Source: a virus
Direction: 5' to 3' (one strand)
Length of the DNA stretch: 64,000 nucleotides
Virus record (IMG/VR): IMGVR_UViG_3300029286_003689
Location: 1-64,000 of that record
Shown here: piece by piece, positions 1-62,713 of the stretch
Layout of the letters: each line of letters starts with the position of its first letter
Position numbering within the stretch: position 1 is the stretch's first letter
The notes under the pieces: model-generated
Databases searched by the model: none
What the model saw: the letters and a program-made list of their open reading frames with translations, nothing else
Told to the model about the DNA's origin: nothing
Made by a program: the position numbers and the translations under genes

Positions 1-2523
1 TTAAACGGGCTCCGCGCAAAACCGGCAACCGATAGACGAACCCGTATCCCAGCGATAGTAAGACGTAACCCGACCCCGGGAACCGCAATACACGCCGCCG
101 CCCCAATTACCGCCAGCAATCAGCTTTACATCATTGGAATAAATAGGGCGATACAACTGTCCTTTATCGCCTGGCAGATCATACCAAGCGGCTGTAACTG
201 CTGCGTCATACATCATTGTCTGCTCATCTAACCACTGCCAGAGAGCACCGCAGGCGTCTTCTACGCCTATGTTGGAAATCATACGCCTTGAGGCTGTGTC
301 TATATGGCCACCGGTAGTGCCAGGATCTCCAGCTCCATTAATGTTAGTCGCTTCGTTTGAACCTGTTGCTATTACCTGAAACTCTGGGTCAGTTAACATC
401 TTCTTCTTTACCGCTCCGCCGTCGTCAGTAAAGTCGTTCCAGTCGCGGGTGTCGGTGATCGTGGCTCCATAGACTGAGGCTGTGGATGTGCCGGTGCCGG
501 AAGCAAGGTAAATATCTACCCACTTGCTAATACCTTCACTATAAACCATACCTTCAGGCGCAGAGACTGGCCTATGGTTTAGATCCCAAATCGAAGCAGG
601 CAGAACGTCGCCAGCGACAAAATCGGTCAAGGTGTGGCCTGAAATCGTTCCTACGGCAACACAAAGCCCGTGGAAACCGCCTATTTTACGGCTGGATGTA
701 GTGCTATAGCCTGAAGGATAAGTGGTGCTGGCTGATAAGAGTATTTTAGGGGCTGTGCCAGATACGGGGACGCAAGCATAAATATAAAAGTCTTTGCCTG
801 CGCGGTTTGCAGCTGTGGTGTAATTCGTCGGGCTGGTAGTATCCCAGTTGGCCGCATTTGATACGTCTATTTCCGTCTGAGAAGTTATATAATAGACATT
901 CCCATTTATGGCAACCGATAATAAGGTTGGAGACGATATAGTGTATCTATTTACAGCTGTGCTATAAGGAGCCTTAAGCGCCCACTTATCGGCCCTGTCT
1001 CTTTGGTATAAACCAGGGAACATAGGAAGGCTTGCTTTTGTATCGGCATACGCTTTGCTACTTGGATTTAATAACTCCCATCGTGTATTCGCTAAATTAT
1101 ATTCCACGAGTGCTACATAACCAGCAGCTGGAATATCACCGGCTAATAAAGCAGATCCGCCCTGTTTGGTAACAGCATGCGCGGTTAAACCGTCTGGTGA
1201 AAAAGTCGGCGTGGTTGATGTATTGGATCCCGATGCTACAAAAGCAACTAAAGTTAAATCTGCAAGCGAAATATCCGGGCTATAATCAGCTGTTATAGCG
1301 TCTACTGTCCCAGAGGCAGTTACAATAGAAATGCTCCCAGTAGGGCCTTGTGTTCCCCTGCTTCCTGATACTGATATTGTCCAATCGGTAAAGGTGCCGG
1401 AACCGCCAATATCAAGAACATTAACTACTAAGGTTGTGCTTGAATAGCTTGTTACCTGACCGTGCATATAGTTAGCAGAGTTAGCGTCGGAGGAAATCAA
1501 AACAAATTGTCCGGCTGCAAACTGTTTTCCGGATTGAATAGTAAATGTCTTACTTCCGGTTGCTATGGCTATGCTTGAGGTTGAGGTAGCTTTAAGAGCT
1601 GCTGCGTAATTATTTGCAGCAGTAACGTCCAGGCCTGTCTGCACGCGGTCTGCGGCGGTGGCTATCTTATCTAAACCTGTTTGAACTCTGTCGGCTGCTG
1701 TAGCAACGGCATCGGCATCGGCACTATTTTTTGACGCTAAGGCTTCTCCTGCCTTTGTGGTAGCTATACCGGCCTGAGTCGTTGCAGTATCTTTATAACC
1801 TGACGTTGCTGTTTTATCTAAACCTGTCTGCACGCGGTCTGCGGCGGTTTGAACGGAGTCCGCATCTGCGCTATTCTTTGAGGATAAAGCAGCTACTGCG
1901 CTAAGCCCGGCATTTGTTTCAGCCGTCTCTGCGTTTCCTTCAGCTGTTTCTGCTGCTGTCTTGGCAACCACTGCCGCATCTCTGGCAGCCTCGCCGTCAT
2001 CAACTAAGCCACTAAGGATCTCGATATAGGCTTCAGTATCAGTACTCGTAGGTGTTTCATCTATCGGAAATTTAACACATCTTGATAATTCTTCGATATA
2101 CTGCTGAGCTATCATCGTAAGCTTATCAACCGCTTTTTCTACGTCTTCAGCATAAAACGGGCCGCCGTTCTTCCAATCAGTCTCTTGAGTAAGAAGCTCT
2201 TCGCGCGCTAAAGTGATTTTCTCGCCAGTAGCTAATAAAGGAAGACCAGAAACTACCGTCGGATAAGTAACATACTCATTATTGACATTGACAGAGTAAT
2301 TACTGGTTATCTCGGTTAAGGCCCCTGCGGTATCGGTTTTATAAAGCTTAATATCGCTTCCGTCGACTGTACTAATAGTAAAAGTAAAATCCCAATTCCT
2401 TGTGACTCCATTACCGTTATAGGTAATCTTATTCGTAGTGTCTGATATTTTCGCAAAAGCTGATGAACAAAAAATACCAAACGCCATCAATAGAATCCCA
2501 AATGAAACAAGTAGTTTCTTCAT
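1..2523 (-). CDS. DGR-diversified tail-fibre-like protein of prophage A, with signal peptide
   Basis: 840 aa. Residues 1-24 form a classical signal peptide: two lysines, a hydrophobic core, and cleavage after AFA. Residues about 25-150 resemble the N-terminal virion-attachment domain of T7-type tail fibres (YNGNGVTRNWDFTF). Residues 175-310 hold alanine-rich repeats built on ADRVQTGLDK, probably a trimeric coil, followed by a collagen-like GPTG spot. The last 200 residues form a formylglycine-enzyme/C-type-lectin-like domain ending in a variable region (about 800-837) and the conserved tail GCRFCAEPV. The C-terminal half closely matches the fibre at 42914-45250, while the N-terminal halves are unrelated. 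The start is supported by AAGGAGAG about 9 nt upstream, inside the end of the preceding gene. Role, inferred: variable receptor binding. Odd: a phage fibre with an export signal. Confidence 0.85.
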   Translation of the reverse strand: MKKLLVSFGILLMAFGIFCSSAFAKISDTTNKITYNGNGVTRNWDFTFTISTVDGSDIKLYKTDTAGALTEITSNYSVNVNNEYVTYPTVVSGLPLLATGEKITLAREELLTQETDWKNGGPFYAEDVEKAVDKLTMIAQQYIEELSRCVKFPIDETPTSTDTEAYIEILSGLVDDGEAARDAAVVAKTAAETAEGNAETAETNAGLSAVAALSSKNSADADSVQTAADRVQTGLDKTATSGYKDTATTQAGIATTKAGEALASKNSADADAVATAADRVQTGLDKIATAADRVQTGLDVTAANNYAAALKATSTSSIAIATGSKTFTIQSGKQFAAGQFVLISSDANSANYMHGQVTSYSSTTLVVNVLDIGGSGTFTDWTISVSGSRGTQGPTGSISIVTASGTVDAITADYSPDISLADLTLVAFVASGSNTSTTPTFSPDGLTAHAVTKQGGSALLAGDIPAAGYVALVEYNLANTRWELLNPSSKAYADTKASLPMFPGLYQRDRADKWALKAPYSTAVNRYTISSPTLLSVAINGNVYYITSQTEIDVSNAANWDTTSPTNYTTAANRAGKDFYIYACVPVSGTAPKILLSASTTYPSGYSTTSSRKIGGFHGLCVAVGTISGHTLTDFVAGDVLPASIWDLNHRPVSAPEGMVYSEGISKWVDIYLASGTGTSTASVYGATITDTRDWNDFTDDGGAVKKKMLTDPEFQVIATGSNEATNINGAGDPGTTGGHIDTASRRMISNIGVEDACGALWQWLDEQTMMYDAAVTAAWYDLPGDKGQLYRPIYSNDVKLIAGGNWGGGVYCGSRGRVTSYYRWDTGSSIGCRFCAEPV
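11..124 (-). repeat. Variable repeat A (VR-A) of a diversity-generating retroelement
   Basis: 114 bp aligning without gaps to the template repeat at 42723-42836. My hand count gives about 17 differences at template adenines (T on the plus strand) and about 12 at other bases. The excess at adenines marks it as a DGR variable repeat. The non-adenine changes show that the template at 42.7 kb was not its immediate donor. The last 17 bp, through the stop codon, are identical to those of VR-B. It encodes the ligand-binding face of the lectin-like domain. Confidence 0.75.
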
Positions 2524-17386: not shown

Positions 17387-17704
17387 TTAAATATCGTCTG
17401 TCTCCGGAGGAATTTCTTTTTTAAGACTTTCTTGTTCTGATTTATATTCGTTCTGCATTTGCAGAAAAGCTTCTGGGGTTATATCAGCCCAGAAGAGTTG
17501 ACCTATAGATTGTTTTCCACAATTAAAATCTGTTTTGTTGTCGCCGGCAAAAGGGTTACGTAACACGCCGGATACACTCAACAAACGCCACATTAACCGT
17601 CTACCTTCAGCTAAACGCAAGACCCGGACAATATCACTAAGCTCGCGTTCCCTGAGCCTCTTGTCTCGTTCAGCTATTTTTTTACCTCTCTCTTCAGCGT
17701 TCAT
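17387..17704 (-). CDS. Bbp19-like phage protein
   Basis: 105 aa. The segment LAEGRRLMWRLLSVSGVLRN, then NPFAGDN and SIGQLFWADI, matches the Bbp19-like family found next to portal genes of BPP-1-like podoviruses. Function unknown; its fixed place beside the portal suggests a head assembly role. It overlaps the portal stop by one base. The prophage B counterpart at 58093-58407 has the same FFARAIYQTSGIF core. Confidence 0.7.
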   Translation of the reverse strand: MNAEERGKKIAERDKRLRERELSDIVRVLRLAEGRRLMWRLLSVSGVLRNPFAGDNKTDFNCGKQSIGQLFWADITPEAFLQMQNEYKSEQESLKKEIPPETDDI

Positions 17705-19446
17705 TATTTCTTACCCTCTTGAACCTTTTGAGGAACGTCTTTGCCGGTTAAAGCTTTTATCACTGCATCAAGAGCAGTTCCCTCTCCCACTTTTGCTTGA
17801 GAAAGAGTCTTGGCGCCTTCAGCTGCTTGCATGCCTGACTGCATCTGTTGCTGCTTTAGAAGAGCTTCTTGTTTAGCCTTACGCATAGCAGCCACAATTT
17901 CAGCACTCCGTACAAGCCTTGCTGGAACACCCTTCATTTCGCTAAATGTCTCTATAATTTCATCAATATCAATCTTGTCTTCTGGCCCAGATTCCGGGAA
18001 TACCTTTCTTAACTCACCTACGAATTGACACAACTCTTGGATAGCCTGCGTCCCTATAGCCTTTTGAGCTTGCGAAAGTACTGAGATAAAATCGATCTTA
18101 ATATCCTGACCTTGTAGTTCTTCGGGAATCTCTGGAATCATGCCAAGAGCGAGCATTATTAAAAATGTTCTGCTTATCAATAAATCAAGGAAGTCTTCAA
18201 TTACGTCAAGCACCGGGCCGAGCATCATTAGCTTCTCTTCATACTTCTTTGCTATCTCTTCGGCGGTTACCTGTCTGCGATCAGACTGAAGAAGCATGAG
18301 AAATAAATCGGTATAGAAAGCCCTGCTTACTGAAGCGCGCGTATTCTCAATACTCTTGTCTACATCTGCAAGGCTAATCTGGACTTGATACGCAGGTCTT
18401 ACACCGGCGTCCGGAAGGTTAGAAGAGGATGTGGTTATTCCGCCAGGAGCAGTGTTTACCTCTCCTGAAACATTAGCGTCTTTTTGCAGTGGGGGCTTTA
18501 ACTGTAAGTCAAGAGCAAGATACCTGTCTTTCTGTAGCTTCTGAAGGCCTTTAGAAGCACCTAAAGCAAGCCAGCCCGGAGCACCCTTGCCATAAATATC
18601 CGCTGAAGTAGTAACTCCCCAGACAGCAGTCAAAACAGGGAAATCGTTATAACCACCTATGCGTAAGAAAGTATCTGCTGGGGATCCTGACTCCCATTGA
18701 ATTGACCGGTATTTCATATTCTGGAAATCTGCCTTATCCGGCACCCGGTCATCATTTTCTTCAATAAGATGGATTACTTTAATCCATTGACCTAATTCAG
18801 CCGCCCTCTTTGATTCATAGGATTTCTTTACGGTATCGCTTACGTTGTCTTTGCCAAACTCCTTAACGAGTTGGTCAACGGTCATCCAGAATTCACGCGC
18901 GAATCCGTTAACTCTTCCATCTGGGCCAACGCTTAAGAAATATTCGCCTGCGGTAAAATTCCTGGCTCTAACAACAGAATCAAAATCTTCCCCGATATAC
19001 ATTGCCGCTGTCCCAAAGCTTCCCAACTCTTCAAAGAACGAAGTCAATGCCCCGTAGATATTTGAGCGCTGGAAAACATTACGCATACGCTCTTCCACGG
19101 TATCAAGCCACAGTTTAACGTTTTGATTATCCATTAAGTCTTGGTCAGATACTCCAAGCTTAAACCAAGGCCTGACCTGAGAAGTCATACCGCTTGAGAT
19201 ACCAGAGCCAAGAGTCCTGCTACAATATTGAGGGTGCTCGTCAAGAAGCGTCTTATGATCTATAGCCTTTCCGTCATTAGGCTGATCATCAAAAAAGCCC
19301 CGTGTGGGGGCCTCATAGAGTTTGATATCTTTATACGTCGGCCAATACCGTTGACCTTCGCTCTTCATTGCGCTAACGCGCTGCTCAAACATTGCCCTGA
19401 GCAATCCTATACCAACCTTCTTTTTTTCTACTACTGCTTCAGGCAT
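17704..19446 (-). CDS. Portal / head-tail connector protein
   Basis: 580 aa. YWPTYKDIKLYEAPTRGFF, the SGISSGMTSQVRPWF segment, and ELGSFGTAAMYIGED are typical of the podovirus head-tail connector family (Head-tail_con). It forms the dodecameric vertex through which DNA is packaged. The family is about 500-700 aa. C-terminal residues 450-560 are helical and glutamine-rich. The syntenic portal of prophage B is at 58407-60206. Confidence 0.85.
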   Translation of the reverse strand: MPEAVVEKKKVGIGLLRAMFEQRVSAMKSEGQRYWPTYKDIKLYEAPTRGFFDDQPNDGKAIDHKTLLDEHPQYCSRTLGSGISSGMTSQVRPWFKLGVSDQDLMDNQNVKLWLDTVEERMRNVFQRSNIYGALTSFFEELGSFGTAAMYIGEDFDSVVRARNFTAGEYFLSVGPDGRVNGFAREFWMTVDQLVKEFGKDNVSDTVKKSYESKRAAELGQWIKVIHLIEENDDRVPDKADFQNMKYRSIQWESGSPADTFLRIGGYNDFPVLTAVWGVTTSADIYGKGAPGWLALGASKGLQKLQKDRYLALDLQLKPPLQKDANVSGEVNTAPGGITTSSSNLPDAGVRPAYQVQISLADVDKSIENTRASVSRAFYTDLFLMLLQSDRRQVTAEEIAKKYEEKLMMLGPVLDVIEDFLDLLISRTFLIMLALGMIPEIPEELQGQDIKIDFISVLSQAQKAIGTQAIQELCQFVGELRKVFPESGPEDKIDIDEIIETFSEMKGVPARLVRSAEIVAAMRKAKQEALLKQQQMQSGMQAAEGAKTLSQAKVGEGTALDAVIKALTGKDVPQKVQEGKK

Positions 19447-19448
19447 AT

Positions 19449-19697
19449 TTATCCTAACTTAGTTTTCTGGCCGCCTAAAATGGCAGGCATAAGAAGATTA
19501 ACTCCTGATGTATCACCGGAGTCCGATGTCTTAACTGTGCTACTTATACCGTATTTAACAGCTGCGACTTGCCGTCTTTTCTTTTCTGCAAGATTAGAAG
19601 AAGTAACATCTGTGGAAGATTTTATTGCCGTTGAAGGAGGAGGTGTCGCTGTTTTAGATGTTGTGGTGCTTGGAGTATCTCCGCCACCGAAACACAT
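19449..19697 (-). CDS. Small Ser/Thr-rich protein, first gene of the portal operon
   Basis: 82 aa starting MCFGGGDTPSTTTS and rich in Ser, Thr and Ala; a lysine-rich centre includes AEKKRRQVAAVKYG. Prophage B has a similarly disordered 80-aa protein in the same place (60207-60449) with the analogous ATEAKKAKAVRSALYKTGGG. Both precede the portal. Function unknown. It is the first gene after the leader at 19722-19865, so it may head the late transcript. Confidence 0.6.
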   Translation of the reverse strand: MCFGGGDTPSTTTSKTATPPPSTAIKSSTDVTSSNLAEKKRRQVAAVKYGISSTVKTSDSGDTSGVNLLMPAILGGQKTKLG

Positions 19698-19721: not shown

Positions 19722-19797
19722 AAAAAAATAGGGCTGTCCCCGCTCGTCGACGAGAACAGCCCAAAAAAATAACCAACCTGCTGTGCACAGATTGGTT
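19722..19797 (-). terminator. Tandem intrinsic terminators between terminase and portal genes
   Basis: Two consecutive stem-loops each followed by a seven-T tract on the minus strand: AACCAA...TTGGTT (19771-19797, T-run 19763-19769) and GGGCTGT...ACAGCCC (19731-19762, T-run 19722-19728). The second is the stronger. They would end transcription from the terminase genes and also from the local promoter at 19835-19863. Confidence 0.75.
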
Positions 19798-19828
19798 AAA
19801 ATGATTTGTGAGGCGCTACCTCACGCGT
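19722..19828 (-). ncRNA. Candidate late-leader RNA of about 107 nt (three hairpins, two terminators)
   Basis: From the predicted start near 19828, the minus-strand transcript folds into a hairpin GTGAGG/CCTCAC (19808-19824), then AACCAA/TTGGTT with inner palindrome CTGTGCACAG (19771-19797) followed by AT7, then GGGCTGT/ACAGCCC with inner CTCGTCGACGAG (19731-19762) followed by ATTTTTTT. It has its own promoter and ends before the first gene of the portal operon. Either it is a discrete small RNA, or a leader whose terminators must be overridden to express head and tail genes. A similar layout precedes the terminase of prophage B. Confidence 0.5.
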
Positions 19829-19834
19829 AATTAT

Positions 19835-19863
19835 TTTATATCATCTACTTGTCATTTTGTCAA
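19835..19863 (-). promoter_or_regulatory. Sigma70-type promoter for the portal/head-tail operon
   Basis: On the minus strand TTGACA (19858-19863), a 17-bp spacer and TATAAA (19835-19840). The -35 box is embedded in the 19-bp element ACTTGACAAAATGACAAGT (19847-19865), which recurs exactly at 22298-22316. The element contains the direct repeat TGACA-AAA-TGACA and inverted ends ACTTG/CAAGT, so it looks like a regulator site overlapping the -35 box. Confidence 0.7.
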
Positions 19864-19866
19864 GTC

Positions 19867-21360
19867 CTATTTGTTTGCGAAGGGGTCGTAATCGTTCTTG
19901 GCGAATTGAGGCTGTTCGTTAGACTTCTTTTTAGTAATGGGAAAGGCAAAGGTAATTGCGGGAGCATCTGCCCTGCTTGGTGAAGCAAGACCCCTATCTT
20001 TCATTGTCTTTTTAGACTCAAGGACTATCTCGCCTTTTAAATTTGGATAAGATTCCGGGCCAGTTAAATCGTCAATTAACTTTTGGTCATCAGGAACACA
20101 ACCGCCTTCTTCAAGCCACTTCTTCATCTTGCCCCACATCTCAGCGCGCTTATTAGCATATCCGGGCGTTGTTGATTTAGAGCCAAAAGAACAAAGCAGC
20201 CATTGCCGATTCATCTGTTTACCAAAAGAATAAACGCCTGTGCCGTAACCTAAGTCAATAATAACTCCGTCGGCTTTCTCTCTATCTTCCCATGCGGCCA
20301 CTGCTGCCGCTATCAAAGCGTCATTGTCATTCTTCTGGAATGTTTGCAGTTGCCGATATACCAAGCCTTGTCGTATACCAATAACTATTTCATCCCCGCC
20401 AGTCCAAGCCATATCTACGCCGATTATTTTGGGAGCAAAATTATATTTATGCGCTTCTATCTGCCTGCCGCGGGCTGCCTCTGCTAAATCAGTAGGAATA
20501 AATTGCAGATCTCCAGCTTTAGGAAAAAGCCCAAGCACGTGCACACGCACCCAGTCGCTATCTATTCCTAAGTCATCAATCCACTCTCTAACCTTTTTTT
20601 GGTTAACGAGCATTGACTTACGAATATCAAGCTGCCATTGCTTCCAGCGATGCCGCATCTTTCCCCAGCATTCACGAAAGCGGCCGGTATTTCTGGTAGG
20701 GTTTCCAAAGACAAGCCACAGTATCTGAGTTCCTAAGTCAGTTAACGCACCTTCTGCTGTCTCCCATATCTTGTCAGGAATAGCTGAAGCCTCATCAAAA
20801 ACAAGGAGTATGCGCTTGCCTTTATTGTGTAAGCCGGCAAAAGCCTCAACATTATGCTCACTCCAAGGAACCTGATCTATTCTCCAGGTACGCTCATGCT
20901 CTTTGCTCTTGGCGTATATGGCTGTAGCTGTAAGTTCAAACCAGTGCTTAGCTATAAAAAGCCTGTACCATTTACTAAGTTCAGCCCACGTCTTAGTGCG
21001 CAGCTGAGTCTCTGTGTTAGCAGTAACAACTCCGCGCGTATCTTCAAAGGTCGATAAAGCCCAAAGGATAATCCAAGCAACCAGCGCGCTCTTACCAGGC
21101 CCATTACCTGAAGCCACCGAAATCTGGACAACATAGCTTACAGCTTCCTGAACCGTCTTTTTACCGGCTTGCAACTGATCCCGAATGTACTTTAAAACCT
21201 CTTCCTGCCATTTATCCGGGCCTGTGTATCCTTCAAGCTCATCTTCACCCCACCTAAAAGAAAAAAGAACCCAGCCGTACGGATCCTTTTCAAATGAAGC
21301 CATGTCTTCAACAAGCTGAAGTTCGGCTTTTATTTCTTCTTCGCGGTCGAGCTCTGGCAT
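19867..21360 (-). CDS. terL: Terminase large subunit
   Basis: 497 aa. The packaging motor: an N-terminal ATPase with Walker A-like SGNGPGKSALVAW (about residue 83) and Walker B ILLVFDEAS (about 186), and a C-terminal nuclease with acidic residues in IIGVDMAWTGGDE, VIIDLGYG, and a final Asp in SRADAPAI. It overlaps the small subunit gene by 31 bp. It is not of the same family as the prophage B TerL (60819-62165). Confidence 0.85.
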   Translation of the reverse strand: MPELDREEEIKAELQLVEDMASFEKDPYGWVLFSFRWGEDELEGYTGPDKWQEEVLKYIRDQLQAGKKTVQEAVSYVVQISVASGNGPGKSALVAWIILWALSTFEDTRGVVTANTETQLRTKTWAELSKWYRLFIAKHWFELTATAIYAKSKEHERTWRIDQVPWSEHNVEAFAGLHNKGKRILLVFDEASAIPDKIWETAEGALTDLGTQILWLVFGNPTRNTGRFRECWGKMRHRWKQWQLDIRKSMLVNQKKVREWIDDLGIDSDWVRVHVLGLFPKAGDLQFIPTDLAEAARGRQIEAHKYNFAPKIIGVDMAWTGGDEIVIGIRQGLVYRQLQTFQKNDNDALIAAAVAAWEDREKADGVIIDLGYGTGVYSFGKQMNRQWLLCSFGSKSTTPGYANKRAEMWGKMKKWLEEGGCVPDDQKLIDDLTGPESYPNLKGEIVLESKKTMKDRGLASPSRADAPAITFAFPITKKKSNEQPQFAKNDYDPFANK

Positions 21361-22285: not shown

Positions 22286-22316
22286 GGCTTATCATAAACT
22301 TGTCATTTTGTCAAGT
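22286..22316 (-). promoter_or_regulatory. Second copy of the 19-bp TGACA element, putative terminase promoter
   Basis: ACTTGACAAAATGACAAGT at 22298-22316 is identical to 19847-19865 and again places TTGACA (22309-22314) upstream of late genes. At a 17-bp spacing the -10 would be TAAGCC, which is poor; TATGATAAG lies a little closer. An activator acting on the shared element could make up for the weak -10. It lies 3 bp behind the last early gene and 34 bp before the terminase operon. Confidence 0.5.
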
Positions 22317-24417: not shown

Positions 24418-24562
24418 ATCCTGCGCGCTTGCCCTGTCTTATCCCAGCCGTTTGTTTTTTCTTATACTGATTTTCGCATTTCTTAGGCGCAGGACAAAAC
24501 AACAATCCTTCACTTATTTGCCGGCCACAATTCCAACAAAAACCCGTAGGTTCTAAAGCCAT
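24392..24562 (-). CDS. 56-aa zinc-ribbon protein
   Basis: Too short for common ORF filters. Reads MALEPTGFCWNCGRQ then LLFCPAPKKCENQYKK: four cysteines (9, 12, 23, 29) of a treble-clef/ribbon type, then a basic tail. Its ATG shares a base with the stop of the GroES-like gene, and its end overlaps the next gene by 26 bp. A Cys-ribbon protein of similar size occurs in prophage B (62773-62970). Confidence 0.55.
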   Translation of the reverse strand: MALEPTGFCWNCGRQISEGLLFCPAPKKCENQYKKKQTAGIRQGKRAGYGAAGSMH

Positions 24563-24831
24563 TATCTAATTACCACGGCTATCCGGGCCTCTGGCAGCGC
24601 AAAATAATGCTCTTTGTCGTAGTCAAACTCAGTTGAAGCTGGCGCGGATATGATTATCTGATCGTTACGCTTAATGCCACTTTTGCACTGCGCGCCTACA
24701 TCTATAACCCGAAATACTGAACCGGATTTAATTACCCCCTTAGCGATATCCGGTACTACTATTTGCCCACCTTCTTCTTCAATCAGCTGCACAATTACAA
24801 ATTCACCTATTGCTTTTGGTCTTTTGCTCAC
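24562..24831 (-). CDS. Phage-encoded GroES-like co-chaperonin
   Basis: 89 aa. IGEFVIVQLIEEEGGQIVVP, then GSVFRVIDVGAQCKSGIKRN and AR IAVVIR at the end fit the Cpn10 fold (about 95 aa family): an N-terminal strand, roof loop region and G-I-x-x-x-D pattern. The mobile loop (residues 17-28) is short. Phage GroES analogues (e.g. T4 gp31) remodel host GroEL for capsid folding; by analogy it may serve the capsid. It is expressed with early genes. Confidence 0.65.
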   Translation of the reverse strand: MSKRPKAIGEFVIVQLIEEEGGQIVVPDIAKGVIKSGSVFRVIDVGAQCKSGIKRNDQIIISAPASTEFDYDKEHYFALPEARIAVVIR

Positions 24832-32935: not shown

Positions 32936-32939
32936 TTTA

Positions 32940-33011
32940 TTGCGGGGGTGGGAATCGAACCCACGCTTATCCGGGTATGAACCGGACGCCTTTCCGCTTG
33001 GCTACCCCGCG
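32940..33011 (-). tRNA. tRNA-Met (CAT anticodon)
   Basis: 72 nt, CCA not encoded. Acceptor CGCGGGG with CCCCGC and a C1/A72 non-pair; D-arm GCC...GGC; anticodon stem TCCGG/CCGGA with loop TTCATAC; T-arm GTGGG-TTCGATT-CCCAC; discriminator A. C1/A72 is the hallmark of bacterial initiator tRNA, but only two of the three G-C pairs of the initiator anticodon stem are present (C29-G41 instead of G-C). It could also be read by lysidine synthetase as Ile(CAU). Confidence 0.85.
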
Positions 33012-33091
33012 AGATCTTAGTTTTCGCTTCAATTTCTTTATAAGCCTAAGACTATTTTGCAAAACAATATAAGCACCTATGCCAGTAATCG

Positions 33092-35341: not shown

Positions 35342-35536
35342 TTAAGTTTCGTCAACCTTTCTTACTTGACGCTTATAGAATCCTGGTTTAAACTTGGTAA
35401 CATAAAGCCCCTGTTCTATGAGATACTGGATTTCTTGGGTTAATGTACGCATATTGGCTTCGGCCTCATGTTCTATGCTTTTACGTAAGGCTGCTGGTAA
35501 TCTTAAATAAATGATTTCAGTACGTTTATCAGACAT
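35342..35536 (-). CDS. Arc/ribbon-helix-helix DNA-binding protein
   Basis: 64 aa. TEIIYLRLPAALRKSIEHEA then MRTLTQEIQYLIEQGL is the ribbon-helix-helix fold of Arc-type repressors. A terminator-like hairpin and T7 tract abut its ATG, and there is no Shine-Dalgarno site. Translation may depend on readthrough or a leaderless message. Probably an early regulator. Confidence 0.65.
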   Translation of the reverse strand: MSDKRTEIIYLRLPAALRKSIEHEAEANMRTLTQEIQYLIEQGLYVTKFKPGFYKRQVRKVDET

Positions 35537-37554: not shown

Positions 37555-37755
37555 ATGGAGCTAAAAGATAGGATAAAAATACTCAGAAAAGAAAAACACT
37601 TAACCATGTTGCAACTTGGCAAGGGAGCTAAAGTAGCTGAGTGTACTGTCTCTTATTGGGAAAAGGGCCGTCAGGAACCTAATACTATGCAAAGAAGACG
37701 GCTATGTCGCTTCCTCGGAATTACTCAATCTGAATTATTTAAAGGGGTAACCTGA
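37555..37755 (+). CDS. Small XRE HTH regulator beside the integrase
   Basis: 66 aa. MELKDRIKILRKEKHLTMLQ, then AKVAECTVSYWEKGRQEPNT is an XRE helix-turn-helix. It shares one base with the integrase start, so it is coupled to it and may set integrase levels or act as a directionality factor. Confidence 0.7.
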   Translation: MELKDRIKILRKEKHLTMLQLGKGAKVAECTVSYWEKGRQEPNTMQRRRLCRFLGITQSELFKGVT

Positions 37756-42676: not shown

Positions 42677-42722
42677 TAATGCATCCAGCCAGGAGTTTAT
42701 TTTCTCCGCACATTCCCCTGTA

Positions 42723-42836
42723 TCCGCGCAAAACCGGCAGCCGATATTCGTATTCGTATTCCAGCGGTAGTTATTCGCATTTCGATACCGGGACCCCGCA
42801 TTCGCGGCGTTACTCCAATTACCGCCAGCCATCAGC
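42723..42836 (-). repeat. DGR template repeat (TR)
   Basis: 114 bp aligning without gaps to the variable repeat at 42924-43037 (offset 201 bp). All 13 differences are at adenines of the sense (minus) strand, of 27 adenines present; none of the other 87 positions differs. Its asparagine (AAT/AAC) codons are the classic DGR source of codon variety. The downstream flank replaces the GAGCCCGTTTAA of the variable repeat by GATACAGGGG, giving the IMH*/IMH difference. Confidence 0.9.
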
Positions 42837-42884
42837 AACCGATGACGCATTAGCCTGTGAAACTCTACTTTTCAAAAAACATCG

Positions 42885-42897
42885 CGGACGTGGTCCG
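42885..42897 (-). other. Hairpin downstream of VR-B (IMH-associated)
   Basis: CGGAC (42885-42889), 3-nt loop, GTCCG (42893-42897), on the 3' side of the fibre stop codon at a distance of 16 bp. Hairpins/cruciforms just behind the variable repeat promote target recognition in characterised DGRs. The stem is shorter than usual. The same place behind VR-A is outside the window. Confidence 0.45.
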
Positions 42898-42913
42898 TGT
42901 CCGGTCTACTTCG

Positions 42914-45250
42914 TTAAACGGGCTCCGCGCAAAACCGGCAGCCGATACTCGAAGCCGTAGCCCAGCGGTAGTAAGTCGCAGTTCGAGACCGGGACCCCGC
43001 ATTCGCGGCGTAACCCCAATTACCGCCAGCCACCAGCTTAATATCACCACCTGAATCTGAGTTGTCCACTTCGGTAGCGCCTGGGTCAGCAGAAAAAGTT
43101 GTATAAACAGAACCTTTTGCGCCAGGTAAATTTCCCCAGTATCCGGTTGAGCCATAAGGATAATATGTTTGCGTCCTTAGCCATTGGTTCATTACACCGC
43201 AGGCATCCTCTACGCCTATGTTTGATATCATACGCCTTGAGGCTGTGTCTACGTGGCCGCCGGTGGTCCCCGGGTCTGCTGATCCGGTAATGTTGGTCTC
43301 TTCGTTTGAACCGGCTGCTATGGCCTGGAATTCGTCATCCTCAAGCATCCGTTTCTTAACGGCTGCTCCGTCATCGGCAAAGTCCGACCAGTTCCGGGTA
43401 TCTGAAATTGTTCCGCCGTAAACTGAGGTTGTGCTGCCTCCGGTCCCCGAGGCGAGGTAGATATCTACCCACTTATTAGTGCCTTCGCTAAATACCATGC
43501 CTTCCGGGTTCGATACTGGCCGGTGCAGGAGATCCCAAATTGAAGCTGGAAGAACGTCGCCAACGGCAAAGTCGGTTAAGGTATGGCCTGAAATCGTTCC
43601 TACGGCAACGCATAGCCCGTGAAAACCGCCAATCTTGCGGCTTGTTGAGGCTGAGTAGCCTGATGGCGTGGTTGAATTGGCTGATACCTTAATCGTGGGA
43701 GCTGCGCCGGACCCAGGCACGCAGGCGTAAATATAGAAGTTTACTCCTGCTCTGTTTGCGGCCGTCCTGTAATCTGTCCCGCTTATCGTATCCCACGACG
43801 CCTCTAAGGACAAATCTACCTCTGCTTGAGCAGTCAAGAAGTAGACTGTTCCGTTGATGTCTACGCTGAGTTTGTTGGGTGTCAAAATGATGTACCTATT
43901 TGCTGCTGTTGAGTAGGGTGTCTTTAAAGCCCACTTCTGGTCGCGCTGGTAAAGGCTTGGGTAAAGGGCTGCTAACTTTTCGGCAAGATAACCGGCTGAG
44001 GCGTCACCTGAGACGTTCTTGACTTTTTCGTCGGTTCCTCCGCCAGCAGGATTAAGTAATTCCCACCTGGTGTTAGCGAGATTATATTCTACGATTGCCA
44101 CAAAGCCTGCTCCAGCGATATCTCCGGCTGCTAAGGCTTGACCGCCTTTCTTAGCGATGGTATGAGGTGTCAGGCCGTCAGGAGCAAATGTCGGGGTTGT
44201 GGATGTATTGGCGCCGCTTGCTACAAAGAAGCAAATAGCCAAATTTGACAGAGTCATATCCGGGGTGTAGTCTGCGGTTATTGCGTCTACTGTGCCTCCC
44301 GCTGTGGCGATAGGTATACCTGCGGCTGAGGCGGCATAGGCTGCTGCTTGGTCTCTGGCAGTCTCGGCGGCTGCTTGGGCCGTCTCGGCGTTGACTTCTG
44401 CGGCCTCTGCGTTAGTTTCCGCAGTCTCGGCGTTCGTCTCAGCGATTTCAGCGTTGGTCTCTGCTGTTTCCGCTGCGGTTTGGGCGGCCTGCGCTGCGTT
44501 CTTGGCCGTTACTGCGTCGTCTTTGGCTGTTACGGCTGTGTCTCTGGCGGATTCCGCGGCCACTTGCGCGACCTCTGCGTTAGTTTCCGCAGTCTCGGCG
44601 TTCGTCTCAGCCAACTCCGCGTTGGTCTCTGCTGTTTCCGCTGCGGTCTTTGAAGCTGCTGCTTCTGAGGCTTTGGTAGATGCTGTTGCTGCGCTCGCTG
44701 CGGCGGCGTTCTGAGAAACTAAGGCTGCGGCCGCGCTGGCTGCTGCCGCGACTGCGGCCTCGTCGGCGTCAAGTATTGTGTTCTCTATGCCGTCTCCGTC
44801 GTCGTTCCATTTTAAGCCTTTACCCGGGTCCGGTTCGGCAACTGTAAGGTCTGTGGTCCCGCCGATCTTAGTCTTTAAGGTTCTTTTAACCTCTTCTTTT
44901 ATATCCTGAACTCCGGCTACGGCTTTATCAACCATTGCTTCAACCACTTTAGCTTGGAAACCTGCCGAGGTAGTCAAGGGTACGGCTTGCGACTTTGGAA
45001 TATCCCTACCAATAACAACGTAATAATCGTCAGAAGGAGCGTCTGCAAAAGTTACGACTCCTCCTGGTGTATCGTCGTCAAATTCAACAGTATAATCACT
45101 GCCAAGCGTCTGTAAGGTCTGAACGCCCGTTTCTACGTCCTCAAGATAGACACGGATATTTGCTTCGGCTATCAAAGCAAAACCGAATGAGAACTCCGTC
45201 GTTACTCCGTTGCCAAGCGTTTTTACTGGTGTATAATTGTCAGCTATCAT
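42914..45250 (-). CDS. DGR-diversified tail-fibre-like protein of prophage B
   Basis: 778 aa, with AAGGAGG 7 nt upstream. Residues 1-125 form a T7-fibre-like virion-binding domain (GNGVTTEFSFGFALI) without a signal peptide. Residues 160-310 are alanine-rich heptad repeats such as AETAETNAE, a long coil. A domain (about 315-400) shared with the prophage A fibre precedes the conserved C-terminal half. The lectin/FGE-like domain ends in the variable region (about 738-775) and GCRFCAEPV. Inferred: trimeric receptor-binding fibre diversified by the DGR 64 bp downstream. Confidence 0.9.
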   Translation of the reverse strand: MIADNYTPVKTLGNGVTTEFSFGFALIAEANIRVYLEDVETGVQTLQTLGSDYTVEFDDDTPGGVVTFADAPSDDYYVVIGRDIPKSQAVPLTTSAGFQAKVVEAMVDKAVAGVQDIKEEVKRTLKTKIGGTTDLTVAEPDPGKGLKWNDDGDGIENTILDADEAAVAAAASAAAALVSQNAAAASAATASTKASEAAASKTAAETAETNAELAETNAETAETNAEVAQVAAESARDTAVTAKDDAVTAKNAAQAAQTAAETAETNAEIAETNAETAETNAEAAEVNAETAQAAAETARDQAAAYAASAAGIPIATAGGTVDAITADYTPDMTLSNLAICFFVASGANTSTTPTFAPDGLTPHTIAKKGGQALAAGDIAGAGFVAIVEYNLANTRWELLNPAGGGTDEKVKNVSGDASAGYLAEKLAALYPSLYQRDQKWALKTPYSTAANRYIILTPNKLSVDINGTVYFLTAQAEVDLSLEASWDTISGTDYRTAANRAGVNFYIYACVPGSGAAPTIKVSANSTTPSGYSASTSRKIGGFHGLCVAVGTISGHTLTDFAVGDVLPASIWDLLHRPVSNPEGMVFSEGTNKWVDIYLASGTGGSTTSVYGGTISDTRNWSDFADDGAAVKKRMLEDDEFQAIAAGSNEETNITGSADPGTTGGHVDTASRRMISNIGVEDACGVMNQWLRTQTYYPYGSTGYWGNLPGAKGSVYTTFSADPGATEVDNSDSGGDIKLVAGGNWGYAANAGSRSRTATYYRWATASSIGCRFCAEPV
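42924..43037 (-). repeat. Variable repeat B (VR-B) of the DGR
   Basis: 114 bp at the 3' end of the fibre gene, 87 bp from the template repeat. 13 differences from the template, all adenine-directed and giving A to G, T and C. Fresh, clean pattern: the element has homed recently, or homes regularly, into this copy. Confidence 0.9.
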
Positions 45251-62619: not shown

Positions 62620-62634
62620 CGTCGAGCTTCCAAT

Positions 62635-62671
62635 AAAAAAGCCAGTTTCCGCCGTTCGAACGGTAACTGGC
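62635..62671 (-). terminator. Terminator between late promoter and terminase of prophage B
   Basis: GCCAGTT (62641-62647) pairs with AACTGGC (62665-62671) with an inner palindrome CCGTTCGAACGG; on the minus strand followed by six T. It lies 16 bp before terS. The shape (7-bp outer stem, inner palindrome, purine bulge) copies the last terminator in the leader of prophage A. Confidence 0.7.
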
Positions 62672-62707
62672 TTTATAATCTATTTAGACAGGGAGCGACC
62701 CTATCTT
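62635..62707 (-). ncRNA. Candidate late-leader RNA of prophage B (about 70 nt)
   Basis: From a predicted start near 62707: hairpin AGGG-TCGCT-CCCT (62690-62702), then the terminator at 62635-62671. Same order as in prophage A: promoter, small hairpin with a UxGCx loop, terminator, late gene. No ORF. Either an antitermination leader or a small RNA. Confidence 0.4.
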
Positions 62708-62713
62708 GCCTAC

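Follow-up and report, generated by a model that had tools for sequence, protein, structure and literature searches.

The leader that precedes the portal operon of prophage A appears to be one member of an RNA element that is widespread among phages and has not been described before; the hosts of these phages are probably Omnitrophota. Comparison across relatives shows a conserved leader structure, covariation, a self-complementary terminator apex and a position before structural genes, and it suggests that the apex stays able to pair between two copies of the RNA while its sequence changes. The window, that is, the whole 64,000-nt stretch of DNA analysed here, belongs to a 75-kb virus record holding two phages, prophages A and B. 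Late leaders with terminators are already known; a terminator apex selected for self-pairing would be new, and no published description of such a family was found in the search listings, which come mostly from outside subscription journals.

Leader locus and operator-like element of prophage A

On the minus strand, the terminase stop is followed by a promoter, hairpin H1, terminators T1 and T2, a Shine-Dalgarno (SD) sequence, an 82-aa ORF and the portal gene. The terminase large subunit gene (19867-21360, minus strand, from protein annotation) ends just 5' of the leader promoter (19835-19863, minus strand), which reads TTGACA (19863-19858), a 17-nt spacer and TATAAA (19840-19835) and likely starts transcripts at about 19828 on the same strand. 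Folding delineated H1 (GTGAGGTAGCGCCTCAC, 19808-19824, minus strand), and H1-type hairpins occur in relatives as well. Terminator scanning and folding placed T1 at 19770-19798, with a 7-T run after the apex palindrome CTGTGCACAG, and T2 at 19731-19762, with TATTTTTTT after the apex palindrome CTCGTCGACGAG, both on the minus strand. The 82-aa ORF (19449-19697, minus strand), a weak match to phrog_831, was delimited by its SD, an ATG at 19697 and alignment with relatives, and it is followed by the portal, or head-to-tail connector, gene (17704-19446, minus strand; PF12236).

The RNA from 19835 to 19718 folds at -49.7 kcal/mol, where shuffled sequences give -25.7 kcal/mol (z -7.4) and none of 200 reached so low an energy. 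Across the window, the terminator scan found no excess (14 observed against 12.7 expected), and the promoter scan, whose rule demands a -10 ending in T, did not pick the leader promoter; the significance of the locus therefore rests on its conservation in IMG/VR relatives. At the gathering score, Rfam 15 returned only a tRNA in the window and nothing in six relatives and eight sources. A sequence-only reading of this DNA had proposed a near-consensus promoter followed by a hairpin and two T-tailed terminators, an arrangement that is confirmed by sequence, fold and recurrence in the relatives. Its placement of the leader 5' of the portal operon is borne out, with promoter, H1, T1 and T2 all preceding the 82-aa ORF and the portal gene. 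Since the gap between T2 and the SD leaves no room for a second promoter, transcripts of the genes behind must pass T1 and T2, as that reading also held, and a small RNA arising from the leader is supported as a possibility. The same reading called this RNA constitutive, which finds no support: the leader promoter is probably regulated, because it bears an operator-like repeat that recurs upstream of the terminase operon.

This element, ACTTGACAAAATGACAAGT, has the form TGWCA-N3-TGWCA and lies over the -35 and the spacer (19847-19865, minus strand), as seen by self-search, pattern search and comparison with relatives. A second copy, also ACTTGACAAAATGACAAGT (22298-22316, minus strand), was found by self-search 5' of a small ORF and the terminase operon, and it occupies the same place in relatives. 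These are the only two matches to the motif in the window, and 100 shuffles gave none. The relatives L004, L005, L006, L009, L010 and L011/L085 carry the motif at three places per phage: one copy lies 5' of the terminase operon, one in the leader promoter and one between the terminator and the SD of the 82-aa homologue, close to the SD. The window has no third copy, and its second terminator stands there instead; one terminator followed by the third copy is the pattern in L004, L005, L006, L009, L010, L011 and L121, and the stretch read from L125 holds no third copy. Within 1.02 Mb of loci, the motif occurs elsewhere only in L007 and L093, and L008 carries one family site. Each virus record holds 1-5 motif sites, with 2-3 clear packaging-region sites per phage, and no copy was found in the early control region. 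A 1.5-Mb host MAG contains five motif places, only one of them outside the prophage contig, which points to a phage regulator and led us to reject a LexA-like host regulon. An operator-like sequence, TGTCAATCTGTCA, recurs in identical form at another position in four relatives (G002:33702, G003:8052, G006:2945 and G004:C3:16571).

A candidate binder of the element is a 66-aa HTH_3 protein (Pfam) encoded next to the integrase (37555-37755, plus strand), for which no link to the site was found. Conserved in G001, G002 and G003, it is the best conserved DNA-binding protein of the window in the three longest relatives (66-72%). The window's RHH protein (35342-35536) was set aside as the regulator; no relative of it occurs in the records compared. 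Other leader phages without TGWCA-N3-TGWCA keep the RNA, and the promoter operator differs by phage group.

The portal and GP7 capsid protein of prophage A are of a type known from podoviruses such as BPP-1, and we take them to resemble those of epsilon15. Omnitrophota is the probable host phylum, because a close relative, L085, with a terminase 82% identical, sits in an Omnitrophota MAG. The prophage also encodes a Cpn10/GroES-like protein (24562-24831; 74-82% in relatives) and a tRNA-Met(CAU) gene (32939-33012).

The RNA family and its terminator apex

Leaders of the phage-A family were gathered by terminase-based searches and pattern scans. They lie between terminase and portal in L004, L005, L006, L009, L010, L011/L085, L121/L128 and L125, and the order promoter, H1, terminator is retained in all eight, with a TA at the same 17-nt spacing after the -35. 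More distant relatives, including L012-L016 and L086, have no leader, and R2, a search model described below, finds none in 40 such sources. A scan for CTTGACAAAATGACA-N9-TA returned 41 stretches, in which the phage-A family is represented by L009 and by nine of the other 40 (L112, L119, L121, L124, L125, L128, L131, L134 and L136, recognised by terminase matches); the remainder look like chance promoters.

Covariation of the terminator was assessed on 10 distinct sequences: eight of the phage-A family, with both window terminators, plus that of prophage B (L006 being identical to L005). In this set, 97.5% of stem cells are paired and 11 of 12 pairs show two-sided change, a result reached in 0 of 500 shuffles. 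All 10 terminators carry a tip palindrome of 10-12 nt, counting G-U pairs in the L004/L011 type. A palindromic apex as a general trait of Omnitrophota terminators was rejected: a Watson-Crick apex palindrome of at least 8 nt is absent from 42 terminator-like host hairpins and from 82 called by another detector in the same 400 kb. Among 193 hairpins in other loci, palindromes of at least 10 nt belong to leaders, save in L111 and L133, which are perfect inverted repeats throughout, and four others reach an 8-nt palindrome.

A sample not selected by palindrome was obtained from an alignment of gpW proteins, which led to 74 loci. After L264 was dropped as too short (78 bases upstream) and duplicate upstream regions were merged, 53 distinct regions remained, a count that excludes leaders from two palindrome-specific scans. 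The script detected Watson-Crick palindromes of 10 nt or more at the apex in 48 of the 53, and reading three apices by hand brings the number to 51; the gpW query proteins were first found beside leaders, so these figures show the constancy of the apex within the group, not the frequency of leaders. The hand-read cases (L277, L284 and L285) comprise one mis-pick by the script and two palindromes with G-U pairs or a broken end, and L308 and L313 have no apex palindrome. Upstream of gpW leaders (for example L182, L186 and L248), there is a conserved inverted repeat, TACTA-N5-TAGTA or TACCAGA-TCTGGTA, then AACGACC about 15-20 bp upstream of the TTG of the -35, which is likely an activator site.

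The alignment of 21 gpW leaders (A9) yields a consensus H1, an outer stem CCCAAU/AUUGGG and the terminator. When the palindrome is taken as pairs, 96.8% are paired, and the two central apex pairs, which are impossible within one chain, are Watson-Crick in 21 of 21 sequences, with 5 and 6 two-sided changes. In a wider set of 21 distinct apices drawn from the terminase-based, gpW-based, prophage B and R1/R2 samples, the central tetranucleotide is self-complementary in 20, compared with a mean of 3.7 and never more than 12 in 20,000 shuffles. Eight different palindromic centres occur among the distinct apices; relatedness inflates the covariation counts. Of the 21 gpW leaders, 13 have AU at the centre of H1 and 7 have GC, giving GAUC or GGCC; these counts go by the AU/GC centre, and a looser GATC/GGCC census was set aside, GGCC also matching GGGCCTGATC. 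This type does not extend to the H1 loops of the window, prophage B, L006 and L125, and the window's loop is not self-complementary. Pairing between the H1 loop and the terminator loop was considered by eye and dropped, as consistent complementarity was not found.

Two search models extend the family. Model R1, built from the phage-A-family and prophage B terminators, had matches with E no higher than 0.01 in 19 of 285 Omnitrophota genomes. Half of its 22 loci have a palindromic apex (11 loci in 9 genomes), including apices new to the training set such as CTCGTATACGAG and CTGGTGCACCAG, and a gpW-like gene follows six of these 11; the other half are ordinary or fully symmetric terminators without a leader-type apex and were discarded. 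Model R2 was trained on gpW leaders only. It also matches the window leader (27 bits, E 0.0026), L005 and L004, and at E up to 0.1 it gives no match to L006, L009, L010, L011, L121 or L125; R1 connects the two groups in the opposite direction. We take phage-A and gpW leaders as one RNA family, of which R2 recovers the phage-A members only partly. In Omnitrophota, R2 matched 18 of 384 genomes at E up to 0.001, and its matches in G350 and G044 were rejected as tRNA-adjacent ordinary terminators. In three other phyla, it matched 4 of 297, 3 of 299 and 2 of 288 genomes. Only one of 13 R2 loci inspected from those scans and one further search is leader-like, namely L342, a MAG locus labelled Deltaproteobacteria with apex CGCAGCTGCG 5' of an unidentified ORF.

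The leader RNA of prophage B (62629-62713, minus strand) scored 42.5 bits with R2, which was not trained on it. Its H1 spans 62706-62686 and its terminator 62672-62640, with apex CCGTTCGAACGG; it precedes the terminase small subunit gene (62619-62158), and its promoter differs from that of prophage A. The two prophages also have in common diverged repeats of the same tail-end ORF region (window 1-1300 and 42700-44500; 60-80% identity), and an ORF of prophage B (L154:10269-11363; record 70269-71363) is reverse-transcriptase-like, with a YVDD motif seen by eye. Scans of viral contigs for two of the palindromes returned 29 and 11 stretches, many of them 5' of structural genes. PHROGs assigned seven of ten downstream ORFs to structural kinds (gpW, tail tube, portal, capsid, head protease, connector and scaffold); one matched a family of unknown function and two matched nothing. 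Two leaders per contig occur in G063, 15 kb apart, and in IMGVR 3300013138_000003.

Leader copies also occur in five islands (G110, G343, G035, G085 and G045), with a gpW-type upstream region and without the outer stem. No structural gene was found among their ORFs of at least 90 aa. The leader lies about 0.6-0.8 kb 5' of a large ORF, and a serine-recombinase-like ORF followed by a MiaB-like ORF was seen in four of the five, the fifth contig coming to an end. Pfam, applied to the L358 copy only, assigned NrS-1 polymerase HBD, DUF5906 and D5_N domains to the large ORF, and resolvase/recombinase and radical SAM/UPF0004 domains to the next ORFs. G110 and G035 have a perfectly palindromic apex; in G343, G045 and G085 its centre is asymmetric. 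Omnitrophota islands of this kind (loci L357-L361, L206 and L331-L336) hold a leader copy, iteron-like GACACTTTG-type repeats and variable neighbours, together with a primase-polymerase/D5-like ORF and a serine recombinase beside a miaB-like gene. From their gene content, the islands appear to be satellites, and they may have pirated the leader module or may use it in trans.

Proposed late switch and its alternatives

We give about an even chance to the leader being a late-operon attenuator that is read through late in infection and whose RNA can homodimerise. A regulated late promoter would make a leader RNA of about 60-105 nt ending at T1 or T2, and the head and tail operon would be expressed only upon read-through by RNA polymerase. 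Promoter firing would be set by a phage-specific DNA-binding protein at the operator, TGWCA-N3-TGWCA here and other palindromes elsewhere. The constant part would be the RNA, comprising H1 and the self-complementary terminator apex, through which two leaders would pair apex to apex, much like the symmetric kissing contacts in OLE and GOLLD; either this pairing or a factor acting at H1 would then govern read-through or leader stability. Promoter control varies by phage group while the RNA stays, which marks the RNA as the conserved device. That the terminators work in vivo and are read through, that leaders dimerise, in which direction this acts and through which regulator are points that we infer. 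Several observations weigh against the attenuator: the gpW-trained model recovers only some of the phage-A leaders, the H1 loop of the window lacks self-complementarity, symmetry is not always kept in the apex, its centre being asymmetric in three satellite-like copies, and a strict Watson-Crick palindrome could equally reflect a constraint at the DNA level. A more elaborate version, possible though on the unlikely side, is that the leader acts in trans and recognises itself: terminated leaders would accumulate and pair with new leaders through the apex, so that read-through tracks leader dose and hence genome copies; the palindrome would serve as a specificity tag, and the leader under a helper-type promoter in the Omnitrophota islands would be their means of sensing, exploiting or jamming the switch.

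A protein-centred alternative, which we regard as rather unlikely, is that a phage DNA-binding protein of the lambda Q, AlpA or GafZ type loads at TGWCA-N3-TGWCA and carries polymerase past T1 and T2, the apex being incidental. The element is phage-specific, recurs at the terminase promoter and is placed between -10 and -35, with a terminator downstream, much like AlpA and GafZ elements (PMC7969949, PMC11150451). However, the third copy before the SD in relatives is not within a recognisable promoter, leaders of other phages keep the RNA without the element, no Q-like protein is recognised and apex covariation is left unexplained. Such a protein may nevertheless act at the operator as well, which is compatible with the attenuator. 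It is quite improbable that the element is instead a repressor operator with stoperator-like roadblock copies, its terminators insulating late genes so that they stay silent in the lysogen. The overlap with the -35 fits this, as do the third copy behind the terminator in relatives and the second terminator that stands there in the window, but only 2-3 clear packaging-region sites exist per phage and none at the early control region, and neither the need of late transcription to pass T1 and T2 nor the conservation of the RNA would be explained.

T1 and T2 might instead be ordinary boundary terminators that stop terminase transcripts, beside a spurious promoter; terminators are common between operons, and the consensus scans show no excess. 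We nonetheless hold this very unlikely, as H1 and the promoter upstream of it are conserved in relatives, and prophage B and the satellite-like islands hold leader copies with no terminase gene in front. The least probable reading treats the palindrome as DNA within a cos/pac packaging site, carried by satellites for helper packaging. Strict Watson-Crick dyads of up to 12 bp, proximity to terminase genes in phage A, phage B and the gpW group, and presence in satellite-like islands speak for it, against which stand two copies in one contig, positions 5' of tail-tube, capsid and protease genes, the many different palindromes within one group and the conservation of promoter and H1 alongside.

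If the attenuator and its homodimer are right, a small phage RNA would be added to the short list of natural RNAs for which evolution points to homo-oligomers, and RNA-RNA contact as a late switch could be tested directly on transcripts of 100 nt. Gene regulation in the phages of a largely uncultivated phylum would also become more approachable, and the presence of the leader RNA in satellite-like islands would place it in the contest between phage and parasite.

Comparison with known systems

In the lambda pR'/Q late leader, a promoter is followed by a terminator before the late operon, and in HK022 put, a nascent two-hairpin RNA makes RNA polymerase resistant to termination in cis. In phi29-type phages, a packaging RNA takes the role of a terminase small subunit in the packaging motor. 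A packaging RNA had been suggested for the present leader too; this is unlikely, because terminase subunits are present and family leaders precede tail, capsid and protease genes, twice in some contigs, unlike the phi29-type RNA. AlpA of Pseudomonas and GafZ of the Caulobacter GTA are described as having a binding element between -35 and -10 and a terminator downstream (PMC7969949, PMC11150451). The leader resembles Q, AlpA and GafZ systems in having a promoter, an element over the -35 and spacer (a match in position only) and T1 and T2 before the operon, and it differs in its conserved two-hairpin RNA with a self-complementary terminator apex. As in the sequence-only reading, no Q-like protein was recognised, nor did Pfam or PHROGs recognise a cognate Q-, AlpA- or GafZ-like antiterminator among the proteins scanned, which covered only some small ORFs.

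The operator-like sites recall mycobacteriophage stoperators, which are reported as repeated repressor-type sites in phage intergenic regions (PMC9283540). In cluster A mycobacteriophages these are many and genome-wide, whereas here 1-5 near-symmetric sites per virus record were found, at packaging operons. For the islands, the closest printed parallel is the PICMIs, small islands with an integrase and a primase and without capsid-remodelling genes, whose search model uses DUF5906 and allows serine-recombinase domains (PMC10803314). Unlike PICMIs, the satellite-like islands described here adjoin a miaB-like gene, show no AlpA and carry a copy of the leader RNA.

Palindromic hairpins that pair two RNAs are also reported for retroviral dimer initiation sites (PMC5874298 and PMC4264320), to which the leader is similar without homology, its palindrome topping an intrinsic terminator. 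In OLE and GOLLD, palindromic tetranucleotides that switch at adjacent positions have been argued to be symmetric intermolecular contacts, and genes for ROOL and GOLLD occur in phages and prophages (PMC12286853). In the same manner as in OLE and GOLLD, adjacent loop nucleotides that are unable to pair within one chain covary in the leader apex. Whereas OLE, GOLLD and ROOL are large, solved homo-oligomers, the leader is an RNA of about 60-105 nt with a terminator and a putative homodimer contact.
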